Of a stretch of DNA of 64,000 nucleotides, positions 24,955 through 55,264 are shown piece by piece (position 1 is the stretch's first letter; every line of letters begins with the position of its first letter). The notes beneath the pieces were generated by a model. It did not search any database. It had not been told where the DNA came from and saw nothing but the letters and a program-made list of their open reading frames with translations. Source of the stretch: Salinisphaera hydrothermalis C41B8 (GTDB lineage: Bacteria; Pseudomonadota; Gammaproteobacteria; Nevskiales; Salinisphaeraceae); contig NZ_APNK01000018.1 of NCBI RefSeq assembly GCF_000732535.1, positions 1-64,000 on the forward strand, read 5' to 3'. A program made the translations under genes and the position numbers.

Positions 24955-26163
24955 TTACGCCGCGATCACACCGTCGCGCTTGAACATGCGCTTGATGTTG
25001 CGCAGCGCCTGGCGCGTGCGTTGTTCGTTCTCGATCAGACCGAAGCGCACATGGGTATCGCCGTATTCGCCGAAACCCACGCCGGGCGAGACCGCCACAT
25101 AGGCCTCCGCGAGCAGCTTCTTGGTGAAATCGAGCGACCCCATATGCTGATAGGCCTCGGGGATACGCGCCCAGACGAACATCGTCGCCTTGGGCCGCTC
25201 CACCGGCCAGCCGATCTCGTTGAGGCCGTCACAGAGCACGTTGCGTCGTTTCTCGTACAGATCGCGAATCTCGGTGACGCAATCCTGCGGCCCGTTGAGC
25301 GCGGCAATGGCCGCCACCTGCACCGGCGTGAACATGCCGTAGTCGAGATACGACTTCATGCGCGCCAGCGCGGCGATGAGTTCCGGGTTGCCGCACATGA
25401 AGCCGACGCGCCAGCCCGGCATGTTGTAGCTCTTGGACAGGGTGAAGCACTCCACCGCGACATCCTTGGCCCCGGGCACCTGCAGAATCGAGGGCGCCTC
25501 ATAACCGTCGAACGTCAGATCGGCATAAGCCAGATCCTGCACGATCCAAAGGTCATATTCCTTGGCCATCTCGACCATGCGCTCGAAGAAATCGAGCTCG
25601 ACGCACTGGGTGGTCGGGTTGCCCGGGAAATTAAGCAGCATCATCTTCGGACGCGGCCAGGATTCCTTGATCGCTTTTTCCAGCTCGGCGAAGAAATCCG
25701 TATCCGGCATCATGCGCACATGGCGCACGTCCGCCCCGGCGATCACAGCGCCGTACGGATGGATCGGATAGGCCGGGTTCGGCACGAGCACCTGGTCGCC
25801 ATGCTCGAGGATCGCCAGCATCAGATGCGCCAGCCCTTCCTTCGAGCCCATGGTGACGATGGCCTCGCTCTCCGGATCGATATCGACGTCGTAACGGCGC
25901 TTGTACCAGGCCGAGATCGCCTGTCGAAGCCGCAGCACGCCGCGCGATACGGAGTAGCGATGGGTATCCGGGCGCTGCACCGCTTCGGTGAGCTTCTCCA
26001 CGATATGCGGCGGCGTGGGCCGGTCCGGATTGCCCATGCCGAAATCGATGATGTCCTCGCCCCGCGCTCGCGCCGCCTGCTTCAACTCATTGATAATCGC
26101 GAACACGTACGGCGGCAGACGATTGATGCGTACGAAGTTGGATTTCGATGAAGCGTTGGCCAT
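24955..26163 (-). CDS. alaC: Alanine-synthesising aminotransferase AlaC
   Basis: Class I PLP aminotransferase, most like AlaC, which transfers an amino group from glutamate to pyruvate. The 402 residues carry [13 protein letters not shown] at the N-terminus, NFPGNPTTQ for the substrate carboxylate, and PLP Lys244 in [15 protein letters not shown]. It is separated from hom by 144 bp that contain a GC-rich near-hairpin but no gene. In this neighbourhood it could also feed threonine/methionine branch chemistry, though AlaC is the better fit. Confidence 0.9.
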
Positions 26164-26272
26164 GGTTTTTCAGGCGGTTGGTGCGCGCCACAGCGGGCGC
26201 AGGTAGGCAATCGGTCAAACGTCGGAGTCTGCCAGATTCACCGGCGCGGCACTACCGGAGTGCGGTCGATGA

Positions 26273-27247
26273 TCAGTGGTCGGGCAGCACCTTCTGTGGA
26301 TTGATCGGATCGCCGTCCTTGCGAATCTCGAAATGCAGCATCGGCTTGTTTTCGGGGCCGAGGCCCATATCTGCAATATGCGCGCCCGCTTGAACTGTCT
26401 GGCCCTGCTTGACCCGACTGTGCTCGACGAAGCCGTAGGCCGAGAGATAATGCTGATCGTGCTTGATGATGATCAGCTTGCCATAGCCCTTCAGACCGGA
26501 GCCGTTATAGACCACGGTTCCGCTGGATGCCGCATAGATCGGGGAGCCGACCTTGCCGCCGATCTCGATGCCGCGTCGACGCGCTGACGGATCGTAGGCG
26601 CGCAGCAACGAGCCGCTGGCCGGCCATTGCCAGCCGTCCGCACTCGGGCCGCCCGCCTTGACCGTCGTCTGCCGCGTTGTCGCGGAAGACGTCGCATGGT
26701 CGATGGAGTTCTCTTCCTGCGAATTGGCCTGGGCCGTCGTCGCCGATTGCCCGCCGCCGCTCGGCGAGCTCGACTTCGTGACGTGATCCGGCGCGGCTGC
26801 GGACCCGGTGCTCGGATTCTGCGTCACCGTCGGCGTACCCGGCGATTGCAACGGCTGCACGTGGCCGTCGGAATCCGACGAGGGGGCCGATCGCGGCGGA
26901 CCGTTGTAGCCACCGGTGTTCAAAGGCGCCGGTTGCGTGCCCGACATACGCGCATAATCGAGCCGCGGATACGGTTTCAGCGTGAGCTGCTGGCCGACGC
27001 GTATACGATACGGCGGACCGATATGATTCCAGCGCGCCAGGTTGTGCCAGTCGATATCGTAATGCTGGGCGATCTCCGAGAGCGTGTCGCCGCGCTGCAC
27101 CGTATAGCTGTCGGGCCGCATAGCCCGGTTGATCGAGCAACCGGACATCAGCGCCGTGGCGGCCACCCCCAGCGTGGCCAGACCCACGGCTAAACGACGT
27201 GGCGATAAACCAGGTAAGCGATCACGACCAAGACAACGAATATCCAT
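26273..27247 (-). CDS. nlpD: NlpD-like lipoprotein with LysM and degenerate LytM domain
   Basis: Outer-membrane lipoprotein expected to activate periplasmic amidases at septation. The signal ends in lipobox LMSGC (Cys37). A LysM domain (about 47-91, YTVQRGDTLSEIAQHYDI) is followed by a Ser/Thr/Pro-rich linker and a C-terminal LytM/M23 domain (about 220-322). The metal-site HxxxD is GIEIGG here, and the later HxH region reads SAYGFVEHS, so no zinc site remains. The ATG overlaps the yqaA end by 58 bases. rpoS, the usual downstream partner, is absent and alaC follows. Confidence 0.9.
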   Translation of the reverse strand: MDIRCLGRDRLPGLSPRRLAVGLATLGVAATALMSGCSINRAMRPDSYTVQRGDTLSEIAQHYDIDWHNLARWNHIGPPYRIRVGQQLTLKPYPRLDYARMSGTQPAPLNTGGYNGPPRSAPSSDSDGHVQPLQSPGTPTVTQNPSTGSAAAPDHVTKSSSPSGGGQSATTAQANSQEENSIDHATSSATTRQTTVKAGGPSADGWQWPASGSLLRAYDPSARRRGIEIGGKVGSPIYAASSGTVVYNGSGLKGYGKLIIIKHDQHYLSAYGFVEHSRVKQGQTVQAGAHIADMGLGPENKPMLHFEIRKDGDPINPQKVLPDH

Positions 27248-27792
27248 CCGATCCAGTCCAGATATTTGAGTAGTCGGTCCTCGAACATGGGTCCGAGCCA
27301 GCGCACGAGCCCGGCGACCAGAAAGAACCGTGCGCCGCGCCCGACCGCCGATGCAAGCGCAAAGGCCAATAGCGGCATGCCGAGGGCTCCGGCAGCAATG
27401 GTGAAAAGTTTATAGGGCACCGGAGAAAAACCGGCAAACAGAACCGCCCAGAAGCCGTATTCGGCGAACCAGTGACGGACTGTTTCGTAACCCTGTTCAT
27501 AGCCGAGACTATGCAGCCACGGAAGCAACGGGTCGATGAACAGCGCCCCGATCAGGTAACCGAACAAGCCGCCGACGGTGGAACCGAGCGTCGCGATACC
27601 GGCATAACGTAAGAAACGCGCGCGCCTGGCCAGCGTCATCGGAATGAGCATGACGTCCGGCGGAATAGGAAAGAATGAACTCTCGGCGAAGGCGAGCGCC
27701 GCGAGCCAGACCTGGGCGTGGCGATGCGCGGCGGCCCGCACCACCGCGTCGTACAGACGGCGCCAGGCGCCGGGCCGGCGCGATGCGGCCAC
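27190..27792 (-). CDS. yqaA: YqaA/DedA-type inner-membrane protein
   Basis: A 200-residue polytopic membrane protein of the SNARE-associated/VTT (DedA) superfamily, YqaA branch. FAESSFFPIPPDVMLIPM at about 34-51 and GYFIG/GFSPVPYKLFTIAAGA at about 117-135 are the hallmark re-entrant segments. These proteins are linked to phospholipid or undecaprenyl-phosphate flipping in other branches, but the YqaA function is unsettled. The start is GTG at 27792, two bases after the pcm stop. Confidence 0.88.
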   Translation of the reverse strand: MAASRRPGAWRRLYDAVVRAAAHRHAQVWLAALAFAESSFFPIPPDVMLIPMTLARRARFLRYAGIATLGSTVGGLFGYLIGALFIDPLLPWLHSLGYEQGYETVRHWFAEYGFWAVLFAGFSPVPYKLFTIAAGALGMPLLAFALASAVGRGARFFLVAGLVRWLGPMFEDRLLKYLDWIGWIFVVLVVIAYLVYRHVV

Positions 27793-27794
27793 GC

Positions 27795-28475
27795 CTAGTC
27801 GTGCCCCTCGATCAACGGCACAAAGCTCACTGGATCGAGATCCTCGCGCTGGAACGACTGGCCCTGGCGCCGCACCACAACCAGACGCTGACCGCCGCCG
27901 GACGCGCCGACGGGCACGATCATCCGGCCTTGTTCGGCCATTTGTTCATATAACGAGGTCGGCAACGCCTCGGCGCCAGCCGTGACCAGAATCACATCGA
28001 ATGGCCCATACGACGGCAGCCCGAGCACATCGTCGCGTGCTTCGCGCGGGCGGATATTGCGATAACCGAGCTCGGCGAACCGGCGGCGCGCCTGATCGTA
28101 CAGTGGCTTGATCCGCTCGACGGTATAGACGGTGGCCACCAGTTCGGCCAGAACGGCGGCCTGGTATCCGCTGCCGGTGCCGATTTCCAGCACGTGGTCC
28201 GGCACGCCGTCGGCCAGTAGCAGACTGGTCATCTGGGCCACGATATACGGCTGCGAAATGGTCTGGCCGTAGCCGATGGGCAGCGCGGTATCGTCGTAAG
28301 CGCGGCTGGTCATGGCCTCGTCCACGAACATATGACGGGGTACGCGATTCATCGCCTCGAGTACGCGTTCGTCGCGGATACCGAGTTGCTCCAGCCGTGC
28401 AATCAGCCGCGCGCGGCTGCGCGCCGAGGCCATGCCGAAGCCACGGACATGGGGATGCTTGTCGGGTTGCATCAT
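27795..28475 (-). CDS. pcm: Protein-L-isoaspartate O-methyltransferase
   Basis: SAM-dependent repair enzyme that methylates isoaspartyl residues in aged proteins. From ATG at 28475 it has 226 residues. The SAM motif VLEIGTGSGYQAAVLA is at 95-110, and the substrate-binding GYGQTISQPYIVAQMT at 69-84. The start codon shares one base with the surE stop (TGATG), so the pair is coupled as in many gammaproteobacteria. Confidence 0.96.
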   Translation of the reverse strand: MMQPDKHPHVRGFGMASARSRARLIARLEQLGIRDERVLEAMNRVPRHMFVDEAMTSRAYDDTALPIGYGQTISQPYIVAQMTSLLLADGVPDHVLEIGTGSGYQAAVLAELVATVYTVERIKPLYDQARRRFAELGYRNIRPREARDDVLGLPSYGPFDVILVTAGAEALPTSLYEQMAEQGRMIVPVGASGGGQRLVVVRRQGQSFQREDLDPVSFVPLIEGHD

Positions 28476-29224
28476 CACAGGCGGTCCAGCCAGTCGGACA
28501 ACGACGACAGGCTGGCATGCCGCGTCAGGTCGATCTGCAACGGCGTGATCGAAACGAAGCCGTCGTTGACCGCATGAAAATCCGTGCCCGGGCCGGCGTC
28601 CGCCTGCGCCCCGGCCGGTCCGATCCAATACACCCGCCGCCCGCGCGGATCGCGATCGGCGATCAGCTTTTCGGCGCGGTGACGATAACCCAGTCGCGTC
28701 GCGCGATAGCCCGCCAGATCCTCGTAGGCTCGGTCCGGGACATTGACGTTGAGGATGGTATCGGCCGGCAACGGATGCGCCACAAGCAAACGGACCATCG
28801 ACACCGCGACGCGCGCCGCGGTGTCGTAATGAACACAGGCGTCGCCGACCAGCGAAATCGCGATCGCCGGCAGCCCGAGCGAGCGCCCCTCCGTCGCGGC
28901 CGCTACCGTTCCCGAATACAACACATCATCGCCGAGATTGGCGCCGGTATTGATGCCGGAGACCACCATGTCGGCGTCCTCATCGAACAGGCCGGTCGTG
29001 GCCAGATGGACACAATCGGTCGGCGTGCCGTCGACGGCGAAGACATTGTCGTCGACCTCGCGCACCCGAAGCGGACGTTCCAGGGTGAGAGAATTACTCG
29101 CGCCGCTCCGATTGCGATCCGGCGCCACCGTGACGACATCGTCACAGACCGTGGCCATGGCGGCGCGCAGCGCCGCGAGACCGGGTGCATGGCACCCGTC
29201 GTCGTTACTCAAAAGTAGTCGCAT
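28475..29224 (-). CDS. surE: 5'/3'-nucleotidase SurE
   Basis: Metal-dependent nucleotidase acting on nucleoside monophosphates and short polyphosphate. From ATG at 29224 it has 249 residues. The N-terminal LLLSNDDG supplies Asp8 and Asp9. Ser40 ([12 protein letters not shown]) and Asn92 ([12 protein letters not shown]) complete the metal site. It heads the surE-pcm-yqaA-nlpD run. The 307-bp region upstream contains a probable MITE rather than truD, which lies further away behind a gene on the opposite strand. Confidence 0.95.
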
Positions 29225-29282
29225 GAACAGACAAGGCTTGCGTGGTATCAACGCGCGTGCATGCACGCGTTCAGCTCGCTAA

Positions 29283-29454
29283 GGTCTGTTGATGCACCGC
29301 TCGAGCGCCGCGTTGGCATCCGCACATCGCGGCCGACAAGGCAACGAATCGTCGCGTCGTGGCATGCCACGGCCGAGACTCGCAACGCCCCCGGGACGCG
29401 ATTTGCGGCCGCCCCGCTGGTCGCGAGCGGACTCGCACGAAGCATCAACAGGCC
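29283..29454. mobile_element. Candidate 172-bp MITE with CTAR-type flanks
   Basis: The left end GGTCTGTTGATGC (29283-29295) and the right end GCATCAACAGGCC (29442-29454) are 13-base terminal inverted repeats with one mismatch. They are flanked by CTAA (29279-29282) and CTAG (29455-29458), similar to the CTAR/YTAR duplications of IS5-family elements. A perfect 14-base palindrome, CGTGGCATGCCACG (29358-29371), lies near the centre. No transposase fits inside. This accounts for most of the 307-bp gene-free stretch between surE and smr. Confidence 0.55.
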
Positions 29455-29531
29455 CTAGCATAGCTTATAGACACCGTGTTTGGCTTTGCCGTATTGGCCA
29501 CGAAGAGCGATATTCCGGGAAGAATGGCGGC

Positions 29532-30086
29532 GTGAGCGATTCCGACGACAACGACGACAGCATCAGCGCCGAGGACAGCGCCCTGTTCCGCAGCATGGTC
29601 GGCCCGGTGGCCACCGTACACCAGGACAAACGTGTACGCCGACGCTCCCTGCCCTCGGCCCGACCGCGTATGCGCGAAGCCGACGAAGCGGCCGTGATGG
29701 CTGAACTGCTCACCGATGCACCGCCCGATCCGGATATCGAGACTGGCGACGATCTGGTGCACCGGCGCGAAGGCGTGCAACACGCGGTCATCCGGCGCCT
29801 GCGCCGTGGTCATTATCGCTGCCAGGCGGAAATCGACCTGCACGGCATGGTGGTCGATGTCGCCCGCCAATGCCTGGGCGAATTTCTGCACGAGGCGCTG
29901 GAACGCGGCTATCGCTGCGTACGGGTCATCCACGGCAAGGGACTGCGCTCGGGCAACCGCGGCCCGGTGCTCAAGATCAAGGTCGCCGGCTGGCTCAGAC
30001 AGCGCGAGGAAGTGCTGGCCTATGCCTCGGCTCGCCCGGTGGACGGCGGCACGGGGGCGCTCTACGTCCTGCTCCGAAAAACCTAG
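29532..30086 (+). CDS. Smr-domain protein
   Basis: A 184-residue protein with a C-terminal Smr (small MutS-related) domain, a nicking-endonuclease or RNA-cleaving fold. DLHG at 102-105 and HGKG at 134-137 are intact, within EIDLHGMVVDVARQCLGEFL and RVIHGKGLRSGNRG. The N-terminal half is acidic and basic low-complexity. I chose GTG at 29532, preceded by GGGAAG. Upstream in-frame starts lie in the MITE. It is convergent with truD (2 bp between the stops) and interrupts the usual truD-surE order. Confidence 0.88.
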   Translation: MSDSDDNDDSISAEDSALFRSMVGPVATVHQDKRVRRRSLPSARPRMREADEAAVMAELLTDAPPDPDIETGDDLVHRREGVQHAVIRRLRRGHYRCQAEIDLHGMVVDVARQCLGEFLHEALERGYRCVRVIHGKGLRSGNRGPVLKIKVAGWLRQREEVLAYASARPVDGGTGALYVLLRKT

Positions 30087-30088
30087 AC

Positions 30089-31162
30089 TCAGCCCGGCGT
30101 CGACATATCCGCCACGCGCACCAGTTCGCGGATCACGCTGGTCGCGAACGACCCGGCCGGCAGGGTGAATACGAGGCGCACATCGGCACCCGCGGCCGAC
30201 GCGGCCAGATCCGACACTGGCAAGCGCAGCGCCCGGCGCTCGGCATCGACACCGAAGCGTTCCAGCCCGTCCCGGAATTCCGCGAACTCCGCCAGTACGC
30301 CGTCCTCGATGTCGCTGGCGGCATCCGTTGGTCTTATGTCAGTCGCGCGAGCTCGCCCGGGCATCGGCCCGGTCGGCTGAATATCGCCCTGCGCCGCGCG
30401 TTCGCGCAGCGAGGCCCAGGGCTCTTCGGTATCGGCCGCCGCGAACACGCTGCGCGAACCGGCCAGCATGAACACATCGCCGGGCAACGGGTCCGGCCAT
30501 GCCTCGGCGCGCAAGCGCGCATCGAGCACGGCGTTGAACAGCAGCGAACGCGCCGCCGACAGCGCGAAACTGCGGCGACCACGCGACAGGCGACGTCCTG
30601 AAAACAGCGCCCGCGACAGCGCGATGTTGCGCCCACCATGGCCGAAGCGCTGGGCACCGAAATAGTTGGGCACGCCGTCTCGCTGCACCCGCGCGGCGCG
30701 CGTCTCGAAGTCCGCCGCATCGAAATCGACGACATCGCGAATCGTGATGTCGAAACGATTGGCGCGATGCGTGCCGCGTCGTAGTTTGCGGCCATGGCGC
30801 CGGGCCTCGAGCACGCGCAGTTCATCATCCATCGGCCAAGCCGGCAACGCCTGCTTGATCGGCCAGGTCAGCGAGAACCACTGCCGGGTGATCGCGTGCC
30901 GATCCTTGAGCCCGCTGTAGCCGATGTCACGAGGCGCAACACCGATGGCTTGCGCGAGCCGTTCCACGGCCTGCGGCGTCGTCAGGCCGGTCTTTTCGAC
31001 CCAGAGCCAGACATGCTCGCCCTCGCCCGAAAGCTCGACATCGCAGATTTCTTCAACCTGAAAATCTGCGGGTACTGCGCGCAACCGACCCATGCCTGAA
31101 GGCGCTGAAGACACAAACGCAAATTCGGCAACGTCGACGGCGTCGCCGCTGAGAAAGGCCAT
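30089..31162 (-). CDS. truD: tRNA pseudouridine(13) synthase TruD
   Basis: Makes pseudouridine at position 13 of tRNA-Glu. At 357 residues it has the TruD signature GYSGLKDRHA at 81-90 with catalytic Asp87, and NYFGAQRFG further on. HRANRFDITI matches the conserved NxF region. Its start lies only 7 bases after the ftsB stop. In the reference order ispD and ispF stand between these two genes, and here they are absent. Confidence 0.95.
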   Translation of the reverse strand: MAFLSGDAVDVAEFAFVSSAPSGMGRLRAVPADFQVEEICDVELSGEGEHVWLWVEKTGLTTPQAVERLAQAIGVAPRDIGYSGLKDRHAITRQWFSLTWPIKQALPAWPMDDELRVLEARRHGRKLRRGTHRANRFDITIRDVVDFDAADFETRAARVQRDGVPNYFGAQRFGHGGRNIALSRALFSGRRLSRGRRSFALSAARSLLFNAVLDARLRAEAWPDPLPGDVFMLAGSRSVFAAADTEEPWASLRERAAQGDIQPTGPMPGRARATDIRPTDAASDIEDGVLAEFAEFRDGLERFGVDAERRALRLPVSDLAASAAGADVRLVFTLPAGSFATSVIRELVRVADMSTPG

Positions 31163-31169
31163 CCCGCGA

Positions 31170-31502
31170 TCAGCCGGCGCCGGAGGTTGCGCTCGGGGCG
31201 CTGGGCGCGTTATGTGCGGGCTTGGTTTCGTCCGGCACCGTCAGAAAAAAGGTCTCGCCTGGTTTCACCATGCCCATTTCCGCGCGTGCCCGGCCTTCGG
31301 TCGCGCCAATGCCCGATTTGAGATCGTTGATCTGGGTCTGGACCGCATCATTGCGCGCGCGATCCTGCTTGTTCGTCTTGGCGATCTTGTCGCGCATCGA
31401 CTGCAGATGGTGAACCTGCGCCAGACTGCCGTCACCAATCCACAGCCGGTACTGCAAACCGGCGAAAATGACAAGCAGTGCGATGACGGCGACGCGATAC
31501 AT
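31170..31502 (-). CDS. ftsB: Cell division protein FtsB
   Basis: Bitopic divisome protein of the FtsQBL complex, 110 residues. A transmembrane helix at about 4-18 is followed by a predicted coiled coil (about 28-70: VHHLQSMRDKIAKTNKQDRARNDAVQTQI) and the conserved tail ARAEMGMVKPGETFFLTVPD. The C-terminus is Ser/Ala/Pro-rich. The ATG at 31502 is chosen over an upstream in-frame extension that would overlap the end of eno. It follows eno as in most gammaproteobacteria. Confidence 0.93.
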   Translation of the reverse strand: MYRVAVIALLVIFAGLQYRLWIGDGSLAQVHHLQSMRDKIAKTNKQDRARNDAVQTQINDLKSGIGATEGRARAEMGMVKPGETFFLTVPDETKPAHNAPSAPSATSGAG

Positions 31503-31578
31503 GTTTCGATTGTATCGCGTCGCCGCCGGCTGTCCAGCCGCCGTTTTTTCGGTGCGGGAGACGCCGTCGCGCAACGAA

Positions 31579-35426
<3,848 letters not shown>

Positions 35427-48613: not shown

Positions 48614-49975
48614 CTACCCGAGCAAGCGCAGGATATCGTTATAGAAAGCCAAGGCCATCAACATCAGCAACGCAACCATGCCCGCCTGCTGGCCCGCTGC
48701 CTGTACGGCCTCCGAGAGGGGCCGGCCCCGTATCCATTCGATCGCATAATACAGAAGATGCCCCCCGTCTAACACCGGGATTGGCAACAGGTTTATGAGC
48801 GCCAGATTGACGCTGATGAAAGCCAGAAAACTGATGAACGCCACCAGCCCGATCTGGGCCGTCTGACCGGCGTAGGTCGCGATCTGGATCGGACCACCGA
48901 CGTTGTGCCAGGAGATTTGCCCCATCACCATCCGTCCGATCAAACGCACGGACAGAGCCGAAAGCTCCCAGGTCTTGTGTACCGCTGCCGGGATCGCCGC
49001 CAGCGGGCCCAACCGACGTACGGTCTGCATCGATTCCCAGGCCGAGGGATCGACGGTAATGGCCGCGCCCAGATGACCGATCTGATCCCCGTCTTCGGCC
49101 TTGCGCGTAGCAAGCCGAACCGAGATTTGACGGGTCCGGCCGTCGCGACGCACGGTCATGTCGATCTGCTGGCCCGGGTGCGCCCGTACGGCATCCACCA
49201 AGGCCTGCGGCGAATCGACCTTTTGACCGTCGATCGACAATACCGCATCACCTGCCTGCAACGGCGAACGTGATGCCGGCGAATCGGACTCGATCCGACC
49301 GATTCGCGGGGTCGCCGGCGGCTGGTAAAGCGTCAGCCCCAGCTGTTGGAACAACTTATCCGGGTCGCTGGGCGCATTCGTGAGATCCAGCGTCAGCCGG
49401 CGCTCTGCGCCCCCCGGGGTCTTGACCGCGATCTGCACCGGCTTGCCGTCGAGGCTGCGCTCGATCAGCGCGAGCCTGAAATCCTGCCAATCGTCGATTG
49501 GCTCATTCGCCAGCGATACAACCTGATCCTTGGCCTGAAGACCGGCATGCGCAGCCGGGCTGTCCACCTTGGGCGTGCCGAGAATCGGCTTTACGCCCGG
49601 CACCCCGAGCATGAGCACCAGCCAATAGGCGGCGATCGCGAACAGGATATTCACCCCAGGCCCGGCCGCGACGATCGCGATCCGACGCCAGGGATGCACG
49701 CGATTGAAGGCATATCGCTTTTCGGCCTCCGGTACGGGGGCTTCGCGCTCGTCGAGCATCTTGACGTAGCCACCCAGCGGAATCGCCGCCAGCCAGTACT
49801 CGATGCCGGTCTTGCGACTGGTCCAGCCGACAACCCGGCCCCCGAATCCGATCGAATATCGCAGTACGCGCACGCCCAGCCGGCGCGCAACCCAGTAATG
49901 ACCGAATTCGTGAATCGAAACCAGGATACCGATAGCAACCGCAAAGGCCGCGGCCGAGATCAACCACTGCGTCAT
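48614..49975 (-). CDS. rseP: Site-2 protease RseP
   Basis: Intramembrane zinc metalloprotease that cleaves anti-sigma-E RseA and remnant signal peptides. The 453 residues have the HExxH motif (His22, Glu23, His26) in the first helix, two PDZ domains (about 115-195 and 205-290), and the second zinc-ligand motif NLLPIPVLDGGHL near 400. dxr, which lies just upstream in related genomes, is absent: 125 bp separate rseP from cdsA, with no coding signal. Confidence 0.96.
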   Translation of the reverse strand: MTQWLISAAAFAVAIGILVSIHEFGHYWVARRLGVRVLRYSIGFGGRVVGWTSRKTGIEYWLAAIPLGGYVKMLDEREAPVPEAEKRYAFNRVHPWRRIAIVAAGPGVNILFAIAAYWLVLMLGVPGVKPILGTPKVDSPAAHAGLQAKDQVVSLANEPIDDWQDFRLALIERSLDGKPVQIAVKTPGGAERRLTLDLTNAPSDPDKLFQQLGLTLYQPPATPRIGRIESDSPASRSPLQAGDAVLSIDGQKVDSPQALVDAVRAHPGQQIDMTVRRDGRTRQISVRLATRKAEDGDQIGHLGAAITVDPSAWESMQTVRRLGPLAAIPAAVHKTWELSALSVRLIGRMVMGQISWHNVGGPIQIATYAGQTAQIGLVAFISFLAFISVNLALINLLPIPVLDGGHLLYYAIEWIRGRPLSEAVQAAGQQAGMVALLMLMALAFYNDILRLLG

Positions 49976-50100
49976 CGACTAGTGCTCCGCCGACGATCGC
50001 GATCGATCGGTTGAGAACAAGCTGTAGCGTCGGTCTTCGTAGCGCATCCTACCCTTGGTCTACCGGTGAGACGGTATCGTCGATTGATTGGCCACCGCGG

Positions 50101-50931
50101 TCAGGCCGCCAGCAGAACCAGATGCAGGCCGATCACGAACCATGGCGCCGCTGCGAGCATGCTATCGAGGCGATCGAGTACACCGCCATGCCCGGGGAAC
50201 AAACGTCCACTATCCTTCACGCCGGCCGATCGCTTGAACATGCTGATAGTCAAATCCCCGACGATCGAGATCGACGCGATCCAGGCGCCGAGCAAGGCCA
50301 TGGCGAGTGTACGCCAGCCATCCAGATCCAGCACGAACGCCCCGAGCACGCCCACCAGCATGGCCACGATGAGACCGCCCGCTGCGCCCTCGACCGTTTT
50401 TCCGGGGCTGACCCGCGGCACGAGCTTGTGACGGCCCAGCGTACGTCCGGCGGCGTATGCGCCAGTATCCGCGCCCCAGATCATCAGGCAGAGCATCAAT
50501 ACGAGCAGCGGCCCTTCGTCGGCCTGGTCGATATAGGCCACCGCCACCACAGGCGCCGCAAGCACCACCAGACCGATCGCCAGCGCCAGCGGGCGCCGGC
50601 CGAGCGTGGTCCGCCATTGCGCGGGGAACCGAATCACCAGGCCAATAGCGCACAGCCAGAATAACGCAGCCAGCCCGAGAACCACGATGTCGGTCGATAC
50701 CGGCCCATCCGATTGACGAAGCCCGAGCACCAGGGCCATGACGCCTGCCGAAAGCACGGTATAGGCGACGCGCCCGGTATGGCCCAGACCGCTCAGCGCT
50801 GCCCATTCCCAGGCGCCTCCGAGCATGAGGGCCCCGACCGCCATCGCCAACCCCAGAGCCGGCAGGTAAATAATGGCAAGAACCGCAAGCGGTAACGCCA
50901 CGGCGGCGGTGAGAATTCGAGTGCTGAGCAT
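50101..50931 (-). CDS. cdsA: Phosphatidate cytidylyltransferase
   Basis: Makes CDP-diacylglycerol from phosphatidate and CTP, the entry to phospholipid head-group synthesis. It has 276 residues and about eight transmembrane helices. The family signature RVSPGKTVEGAAGG near 183-196 is followed by the conserved GDLTISMFKR and DSGRLFPGHGGVLDRLDS region holding the metal-binding aspartates. uppS ends 3 bp upstream, so they form one transcript. Confidence 0.95.
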   Translation of the reverse strand: MLSTRILTAAVALPLAVLAIIYLPALGLAMAVGALMLGGAWEWAALSGLGHTGRVAYTVLSAGVMALVLGLRQSDGPVSTDIVVLGLAALFWLCAIGLVIRFPAQWRTTLGRRPLALAIGLVVLAAPVVAVAYIDQADEGPLLVLMLCLMIWGADTGAYAAGRTLGRHKLVPRVSPGKTVEGAAGGLIVAMLVGVLGAFVLDLDGWRTLAMALLGAWIASISIVGDLTISMFKRSAGVKDSGRLFPGHGGVLDRLDSMLAAAPWFVIGLHLVLLAA

Positions 50932-55024: not shown

Positions 55025-55264
55025 AGATTGTCTCCGGGTTGAGCCTCCGCGCATCCCATGGAACAACCCCCAGCCGATTGGCGAGAGGCACCCTATTCCA
55101 TGTGTCGATACACGTGTGTATTTACAGAATTATGAACGGCATCATGCCGCTCGAACGCCGCGGATTGCCGCGAACGCGAGCGGTTTATACCATAGCGGCC
55201 CTTCACAGGCCACCGTCGCGCTGATGCGACGTTGTTATTTTGCCACCGGCAAGGATCGAACGCG
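55025..55264 (-). promoter_or_regulatory. rpsB leader and divergent rpsB/map promoter region
   Basis: A 240-bp gap between rpsB (minus) and map (plus). Gammaproteobacterial rpsB messages carry a structured leader (t44/S2 leader) that mediates S2 autoregulation. This region is where one should lie, but I cannot fold it here. Visible elements: inverted repeat ATACAC-GT-GTGTAT at 55108-55121, a 13-base palindrome CGGCATCATGCCG at 55137-55149, and a CATAAT -10-like box on the minus strand at about 55130. The map start follows GCAAGGATCGAACGCG. Confidence 0.4.

Follow-up and report, generated by a model that had tools for sequence, protein, structure and literature searches.

The ftsB-truD junction of a Salinisphaera relative is a very probable scar of the replacement of the MEP pathway by mevalonate in Salinisphaeraceae

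Replacement of the MEP pathway by the mevalonate pathway is known from several bacteria, for example Gram-positive cocci and Borrelia. Related bacteria can differ in the isoprenoid pathway they use, according to the available excerpt of a review (PMC13001223). The accessible portion of a survey of MEP-using species describes 181 without Dxs, the mechanism being unknown for 172 of the 181, and indicates that its approach would not catch species with a complete mevalonate pathway (PMC10663253). For E. coli, suppressors of dxs loss are reported in RibB (G108S or D113G) and in aceE (commonest L633R), and a dxs-null strain still holds trace DXP, in the accessible part of the paper concerned (PMC3424233). 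As to the IspD enzyme, R157 contacts MEP in the excerpt available of one study (PMC11770629), and T189 appears as a MEP-site residue in a docking result of another, likewise available in part (PMC13071607).

The window analysed here is a stretch of 64,000 nucleotides from the genome of a salt-loving Salinisphaera relative (4.28 Mb in 91 contigs, rated 99.92% complete), a genus listed under Salinisphaerales in the NCBI taxonomy and belonging to the order named Nevskiales in GTDB. Order-wide searches covered 85 genomes: 17 of the same family, Salinisphaeraceae (f1), 18 of a group identified as Nevskia by named matches for several members (g10), two of group g13, and 48 others. On the minus strand of the window the gene order is kdsA-eno-ftsB-truD, then divergent smr, surE and pcm (Table 1). 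The original prediction placed the ftsB stop at 31170 and the truD start at 31162, with ispD and ispF gone from the 7 bases between them; the coordinates confirm the junction, and the absence of both genes was confirmed by a tblastn search with queries from a sister family, f5 (E 1e-3), which detected neither IspD nor IspF in window positions 26001-34000, both being present at the f5 counterpart. Sister genomes of f5 keep ispD-ispF in the same gene order, as foreseen: kdsA-eno-ftsB-ispD-ispF-truD-smr-surE-pcm, equal to the window order plus ispD-ispF and one extra gene after truD. The reference order assumed at the outset thus held for the flanks and for ispD and ispF between them, but not for the several genes supposed to separate ispD from ispF, which are directly adjacent in f5. 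The genomes examined of f2, f3, f6, g14 and g17 have the order ftsB-ispD-ispF-smr-surE with no truD match between. TruD is patchy across the order (34 of 85 genomes); by coordinates, it adjoins ispF in three f5 genomes (G061, G062 and G064) and lies far from ispF on the same contig in G003.

Table 1. Genes and intervals at the two sites of the window where MEP genes are missing
Feature	Position in window	Strand	Basis
surE, downstream anchor	28475..29266	-	Pfam SurE; synteny
Smr-domain gene, in relatives too between junction and surE	29289..30086	+	Pfam Smr; synteny
truD, 357 aa	30089..31162	-	Pfam TruD, 216.5 bits
ftsB-truD junction, 7 bases; ispD and ispF here in f5 relatives	31163..31169	.	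Coordinates, synteny
ftsB, 110 aa	31170..31502	-	Pfam DivIC PF04977, 56.7 bits on longer ORF; ATG start chosen
eno, upstream anchor	31579..32862	-	Pfam enolase N and C domains
rseP	48614..49975	-	Pfam Peptidase_M50 and PDZ
cdsA-rseP gap, 125 bases; dxr here in MEP-positive relatives	49976..50100	.	Coordinates; Dxr matches by position
cdsA	50101..50931	-	Pfam CTP_transf_1, 195 bits

The dxr site, predicted to be a second and independent place of loss, is empty as well and separate from the junction, cdsA and rseP being only 125 bases apart. This gap measures 1.2-1.3 kb in five MEP-positive relatives examined, within whose gaps the genome-wide Dxr matches fall by coordinates (Dxr was not queried at the loci), and 110-210 bases in seven f1, g10 and g13 genomes examined; an eighth switched genome, G027, had no cdsA-rseP match in the stretch examined. 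Elsewhere in the window, the sole Rfam match over its gathering score is a t44 RNA (55038-55136, minus strand, 74 bits) that overlaps the beginning of the frame for ribosomal protein S2.

Searches of the source genome for MEP genes covered dxs, dxr, ispD, ispF and ispH. IspF (PF02542), Dxr (TIGR00243) and IspH (PF02401) had no matches there; IspD (TIGR00453), searched across the whole of this genome and downstream of ftsB in relatives, had six matches, the best of them at 41.9 bits against a cut-off of 181.3; and the best DXS match (E 1.1e-13) was not above cut-off. Relocation of ispD, ispF or an ispDF fusion elsewhere in the genome, named in the original prediction as the finding that would speak against loss, is rejected for this genome on these genome-wide profile searches, which had none over cut-off. 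Among the 85 genomes there are 46 with an IspF match, 47 with a Dxr match (over cut-off in 46) and 47 with an IspH match, and the counts are the same for the 48 genomes outside the three groups. All three are absent from 17 of 17 f1, 18 of 18 g10 and both g13 genomes; the misses outside these groups are G009 (86% complete; IspF) and G012 (76% complete; all three). A dxs gene over cut-off occurs in none of the 17 f1 and neither of the g13 genomes, and in 17 of the 18 g10 genomes; G009 and G062 have no full-score dxs, only partial matches. No ispD follows ftsB in the 15 junctions examined among the other 16 f1 genomes, the count excluding G078, which has no enolase match. The loss of MEP genes is real and extends beyond the three first proposed, dxs and ispH being missing along with dxr, ispD and ispF. 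The further expectation that all MEP genes would be lost together on the tree failed: nearly all g10 genomes keep dxs, and ispD stays at the junction in 14 of the 20 g10 and g13 genomes.

On another contig than the window, the source genome carries an operon encoding diphosphomevalonate decarboxylase (MDD; TIGR01240, 269 bits, cut-off 171), a PMK-like kinase, a 775-aa frame in which HMG-CoA reductase (HMGR; TIGR00532, 422 bits, cut-off 260; PF00368, 378 bits) and mevalonate kinase (MK; TIGR00549, 239 bits, cut-off 163) form one chain, and IPP isomerase (IDI1; TIGR02150, 148 bits, cut-off 106), with a divergent HMG-CoA synthase (HMGS) gene upstream. The PMK-like protein (TIGR01220, 120 bits) is below the cut-off of 165.7 and has a GHMP kinase domain over the Pfam cut-off, and HMGS (TIGR01835, 159 bits) is below the cut-off of 360 and has HMG_CoA_synt_N (54 bits) and HMG_CoA_synt_C (41 bits) domains both over cut-off, so that the assignment of these two steps depends on weaker family resemblance together with operon context. 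MDD, PMK, HMGR, MK and IDI stand together in 18 of 18 f1, g10 and g13 loci, with HMGS inside the stretch in 13 of the 18. A fused-length HMGR frame (>700 aa) is found in 17 of 17 f1, both g13 and 16 of 18 g10 genomes and in none of the 48 others; the g10 exceptions are G015, which has an unfused HMGR copy only, and G028, whose copy is cut by a contig end. Three HMGR loci examined from MEP-positive genomes show matches of 23-25%, and their frames are of the usual length for an unfused reductase. Unfused HMG-CoA reductases of approximately 400-450 aa occur in several genomes of the order, some of them MEP-positive, where they possibly serve in mevalonate breakdown. Beside the mevalonate operon of the source genome (L029:8-5164) are genes for a radical SAM/DUF3463 protein that resembles HpnH on inspection, for a PEP mutase carrying a nucleotidyltransferase part, for a thiamin-diphosphate enzyme and for a class-V aminotransferase, a set that looks like a phosphonate cluster. 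In the part of the open-licence PMC literature that was available, no description of an HMG-CoA reductase-mevalonate kinase fusion was found, and Salinisphaera together with mevalonate led only to a paper on iron-sulfur enzymes; no paper joining Nevskia with mevalonate and isoprenoids was found in the open-licence PMC literature.

The junction is very probably the scar of a pathway replacement, in which mevalonate took over from MEP in Salinisphaeraceae and the MEP genes, having become dispensable, were removed. The Salinisphaeraceae lineage would have gained the operon of MDD, PMK-like kinase, HMGR-MK fusion and IDI1, with HMGS beside it, presumably by transfer; if the operon carries flux, as its content suggests, isopentenyl diphosphate would then have come from acetyl-CoA and the MEP genes could be dispensed with. 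ispD and ispF would have been excised cleanly between ftsB and truD, and dxr between cdsA and rseP; such clean excisions are consistent with relaxed constraint after replacement. The original prediction offered selection for, or tolerance of, MEP loss: tolerance is explained by the mevalonate operon, and selection for loss is not separated from neutral loss. The loss of dxs carries this family further than its switched relatives, with the DXP for PdxJ (vitamin B6) and ThiG (thiamin) coming, judging from gene content, from a source other than DXS.

PdxJ was found by profile search in 84 of the 85 genomes, including all 17 f1 genomes, both g13 genomes and G017, the one g10 genome that, like g13, also lacks DXS. 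The PdxJ of the source genome (PF03740, 327 bits) keeps 15 of 15 active-site positions checked, and all 15 are kept in 13 of 13 DXS-less genomes examined. In an alignment that leaves aside G029 and G017, 80 PdxJ columns are invariant in 16 controls (15 relatives and E. coli); one or more DXS-less genomes depart from the controls at 14 of these columns, all of them outside the 15 active-site positions. Pairwise dN/dS of pdxJ among nine f1 genomes is 0.09-0.32, a rough range because dS is near or above 1 in many pairs, and pdxJ adjoins its usual recO-like neighbour in the f1 loci listed. ThiG is present in both f1 genomes examined, as a ThiS-ThiG fusion (360 bits) in the source genome and at 374 bits in G069. 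Since PdxJ and ThiG are kept while DXS is absent, Salinisphaeraceae probably make DXP without DXS.

Three candidate bypasses were examined, of which RibB, in the form known from E. coli, and AceE were rejected. For RibB, G108 and D113 are intact in all 19 copies read of the 22 f1 RibB or RibBA copies, with all 17 genomes covered. For AceE, residue 633 looked promising at first, being I in 13 of 13 f1 main copies versus L in 8 of 8 DXS-positive controls; larger controls show I in 7 of 46 DXS-positive copies (15 of 17 in f1), and the lead was dropped because I at 633 occurs in DXS-positive copies too. Q408 and E636 of AceE are intact in 17 of 17 f1 copies examined, and three DXS-less copies from outside f1 have L (two) or F (one, G037) at 633. 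As to a transketolase that might act covertly as DXP synthase, the protein of the source genome matches ordinary transketolases along its length (954 bits) and shows no sign of change at this level of overall similarity. As separate observations, the AceE of the DXS-less G037 (L304) is remodelled in the loop that corresponds to residues 630-634 of the E. coli protein; RibB occurs solely as a stand-alone protein in seven f1 genomes and alongside a gene of RibBA length in five others (L143:8302-8976); and a stand-alone RibB copy lies near transketolase in the f1 loci listed.

One reading, rated below an even chance, is that a dedicated and undescribed enzyme unrelated to DXS makes DXP for vitamins B6 and B1 in Salinisphaeraceae; as g13 and G017 are DXS-less too, such an enzyme may have originated or been passed on in more than one instance. 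A slightly less likely possibility is a leak, in which common carboligases such as pyruvate dehydrogenase or acetolactate synthase yield trace DXP, enough for vitamins and not for isoprenoids. The vitamin demand is far below the isoprenoid demand, which favours a leak, and the genomes in which full-score dxs is missing are likewise without dxr, ispF and ispH, the exceptions being G009 and G062 with their partial matches. Trace DXP in dxs-null E. coli, as given in the accessible part of PMC3424233, also agrees with a leak. Against it, no candidate gene was found; AceE is absent from G069 (99% complete), which keeps both PdxJ and ThiG, and is also not found in G078 (81% complete); and most g10 genomes keep dxs though they are without dxr, ispF and ispH. 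It is unlikely that PdxJ and ThiG have ceased to make vitamins from DXP, the vitamins being taken up and the genes lingering or using another substrate: DXS absence throughout f1 would fit, but the intact PdxJ active sites, the low pdxJ dN/dS and the kept recO-like neighbour all argue otherwise.

The history of the replacement was approached through the fusion protein, whose homologues were taken as the best 80 of at least 585 related loci from a genome scan; the resulting quick tree (LG+G4) has 98 rows, 91 of them different, all of fused length (at least 650 aa). Among the matches listed for L028:14701-17028, HMGR-MK fusions occur in Salinisphaera, Nevskia, Dyella, Wenzhouxiangella, Cryobacterium, Calditrichota and Balneolota. 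A branch whose SH-aLRT is 100 has the f1 fusions and those of the actinobacterial Microbacteriaceae to one side and those of Nevskia and g13 to the other, the latter within a clade of 30 rows that includes Dyella and relatives and likewise has SH-aLRT 100; L204 is placed inside Salinisphaera, and Dyella inside the Nevskia clade. When the 15 f1 rows are constrained to group with all 30 rows of the Nevskia/Dyella clade, the log-likelihood drops by 263 units (AU p=5.5e-6), the groups having been named after the tree was seen. A single f1 clade is not rejected (AU p=0.589), its position beside Microbacteriaceae being left open by the drawn tree. Because the joint grouping is rejected, the swap to mevalonate probably happened at least twice in the order, taking families as clades. 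The operon order MDD-PMK-HMGR/MK-IDI, identical in f1, g10 and g13, would suit a single mevalonate gain in the ancestor of the order, after which other lineages lost mevalonate and kept MEP, but the fully supported branch between the f1 and the Nevskia/g13 fusions and the rejection of their joint clade make this very improbable. Hardly credible at all is that no pathway was lost and that ispD, ispF and dxr were simply missed in assembly gaps or elsewhere, as the 91 contigs of the source genome might suggest, since no f1 genome has ispF, dxr or ispH, not even the single-contig G080 and the 9-contig G084, the same searches score in 46-47 of the 48 other genomes, and all 17 f1 genomes carry HMGR.

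The switched relatives mark a different state, with dxr, ispF and ispH gone in 20 of 20 g10 and g13 genomes and dxs kept in 17 of 18 g10 genomes. In 12 of 18 g10 genomes and in both g13 genomes an orphan ispD immediately follows ftsB (e.g. L173:2490-3200). None follows it in G013, G019, G020 or G025, or within the readable 0.9 kb of G028; the junction of G024 is unreadable. The orphan IspD of G017, the one copy scanned, scores 215.8 bits with the NCBIfam ispD model (cut-off 181.3). Twelve of the 14 orphan copies were aligned by residue, with G026 and G029 counted and not aligned: of the CTP-site residues, all 12 copies keep R20, K27, D106 and R109, 11 keep K213 and 10 keep G18, whereas in the cytosine pocket all 12 carry S in place of A14, which is A in 7 of 7 MEP-positive relatives. 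Of the MEP-contact residues, R157 is kept in 5 of 12 orphan copies and T189, the MEP-site residue of the docking result, in 2 of 12, versus 7 of 7 for both in MEP-positive relatives. Pairwise dN/dS of 0.08-0.41, a rough range since many pairs have dS near 1, points in an approximate way to purifying selection on orphan ispD, and the orphan IspD is likely a repurposed nucleotidyltransferase.

Together these genomes constitute a natural experiment in stages: MEP intact, MEP broken with dxs and ispD kept, and MEP and dxs both gone. The role of an IspD in cells that have stopped making MEP thereby becomes testable. Bacterial ribitol-phosphate cytidylyltransferases are, like the Nevskia orphan, IspD-type enzymes without the MEP pathway. 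The same is true of human IspD/CRPPA, in the excerpt available of PMC11770629: an IspD-type enzyme in an organism without that pathway. Unlike these, the one Nevskia copy scanned is still named ispD by NCBIfam. The origin of DXP in bacteria that have no DXS, raised as a question in the accessible portion of PMC10663253, likewise becomes testable. Like the species of that survey, Salinisphaeraceae apparently need DXP and have no DXS that could be found; unlike them, as far as the accessible text describes a use of DXP for isoprenoids, Salinisphaeraceae would need it for vitamins only. The E. coli aceE and ribB suppressors make DXP without DXS by a non-homologous enzyme, according to the available part of PMC3424233, but the suppressor residues were not found in f1. 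As in other bacteria that went from MEP to mevalonate, in the terms of the excerpt of PMC13001223, mevalonate genes are present and MEP genes gone; unlike other replacements, this one concerns a gammaproteobacterial family, with excisions that are clean by synteny, a fused HMGR-mevalonate kinase, and dxs lost with PdxJ kept. The replacement itself is thus a known kind of event, and what distinguishes it is a DXS-less, PdxJ-bearing family with a neighbouring stage of orphan IspD.
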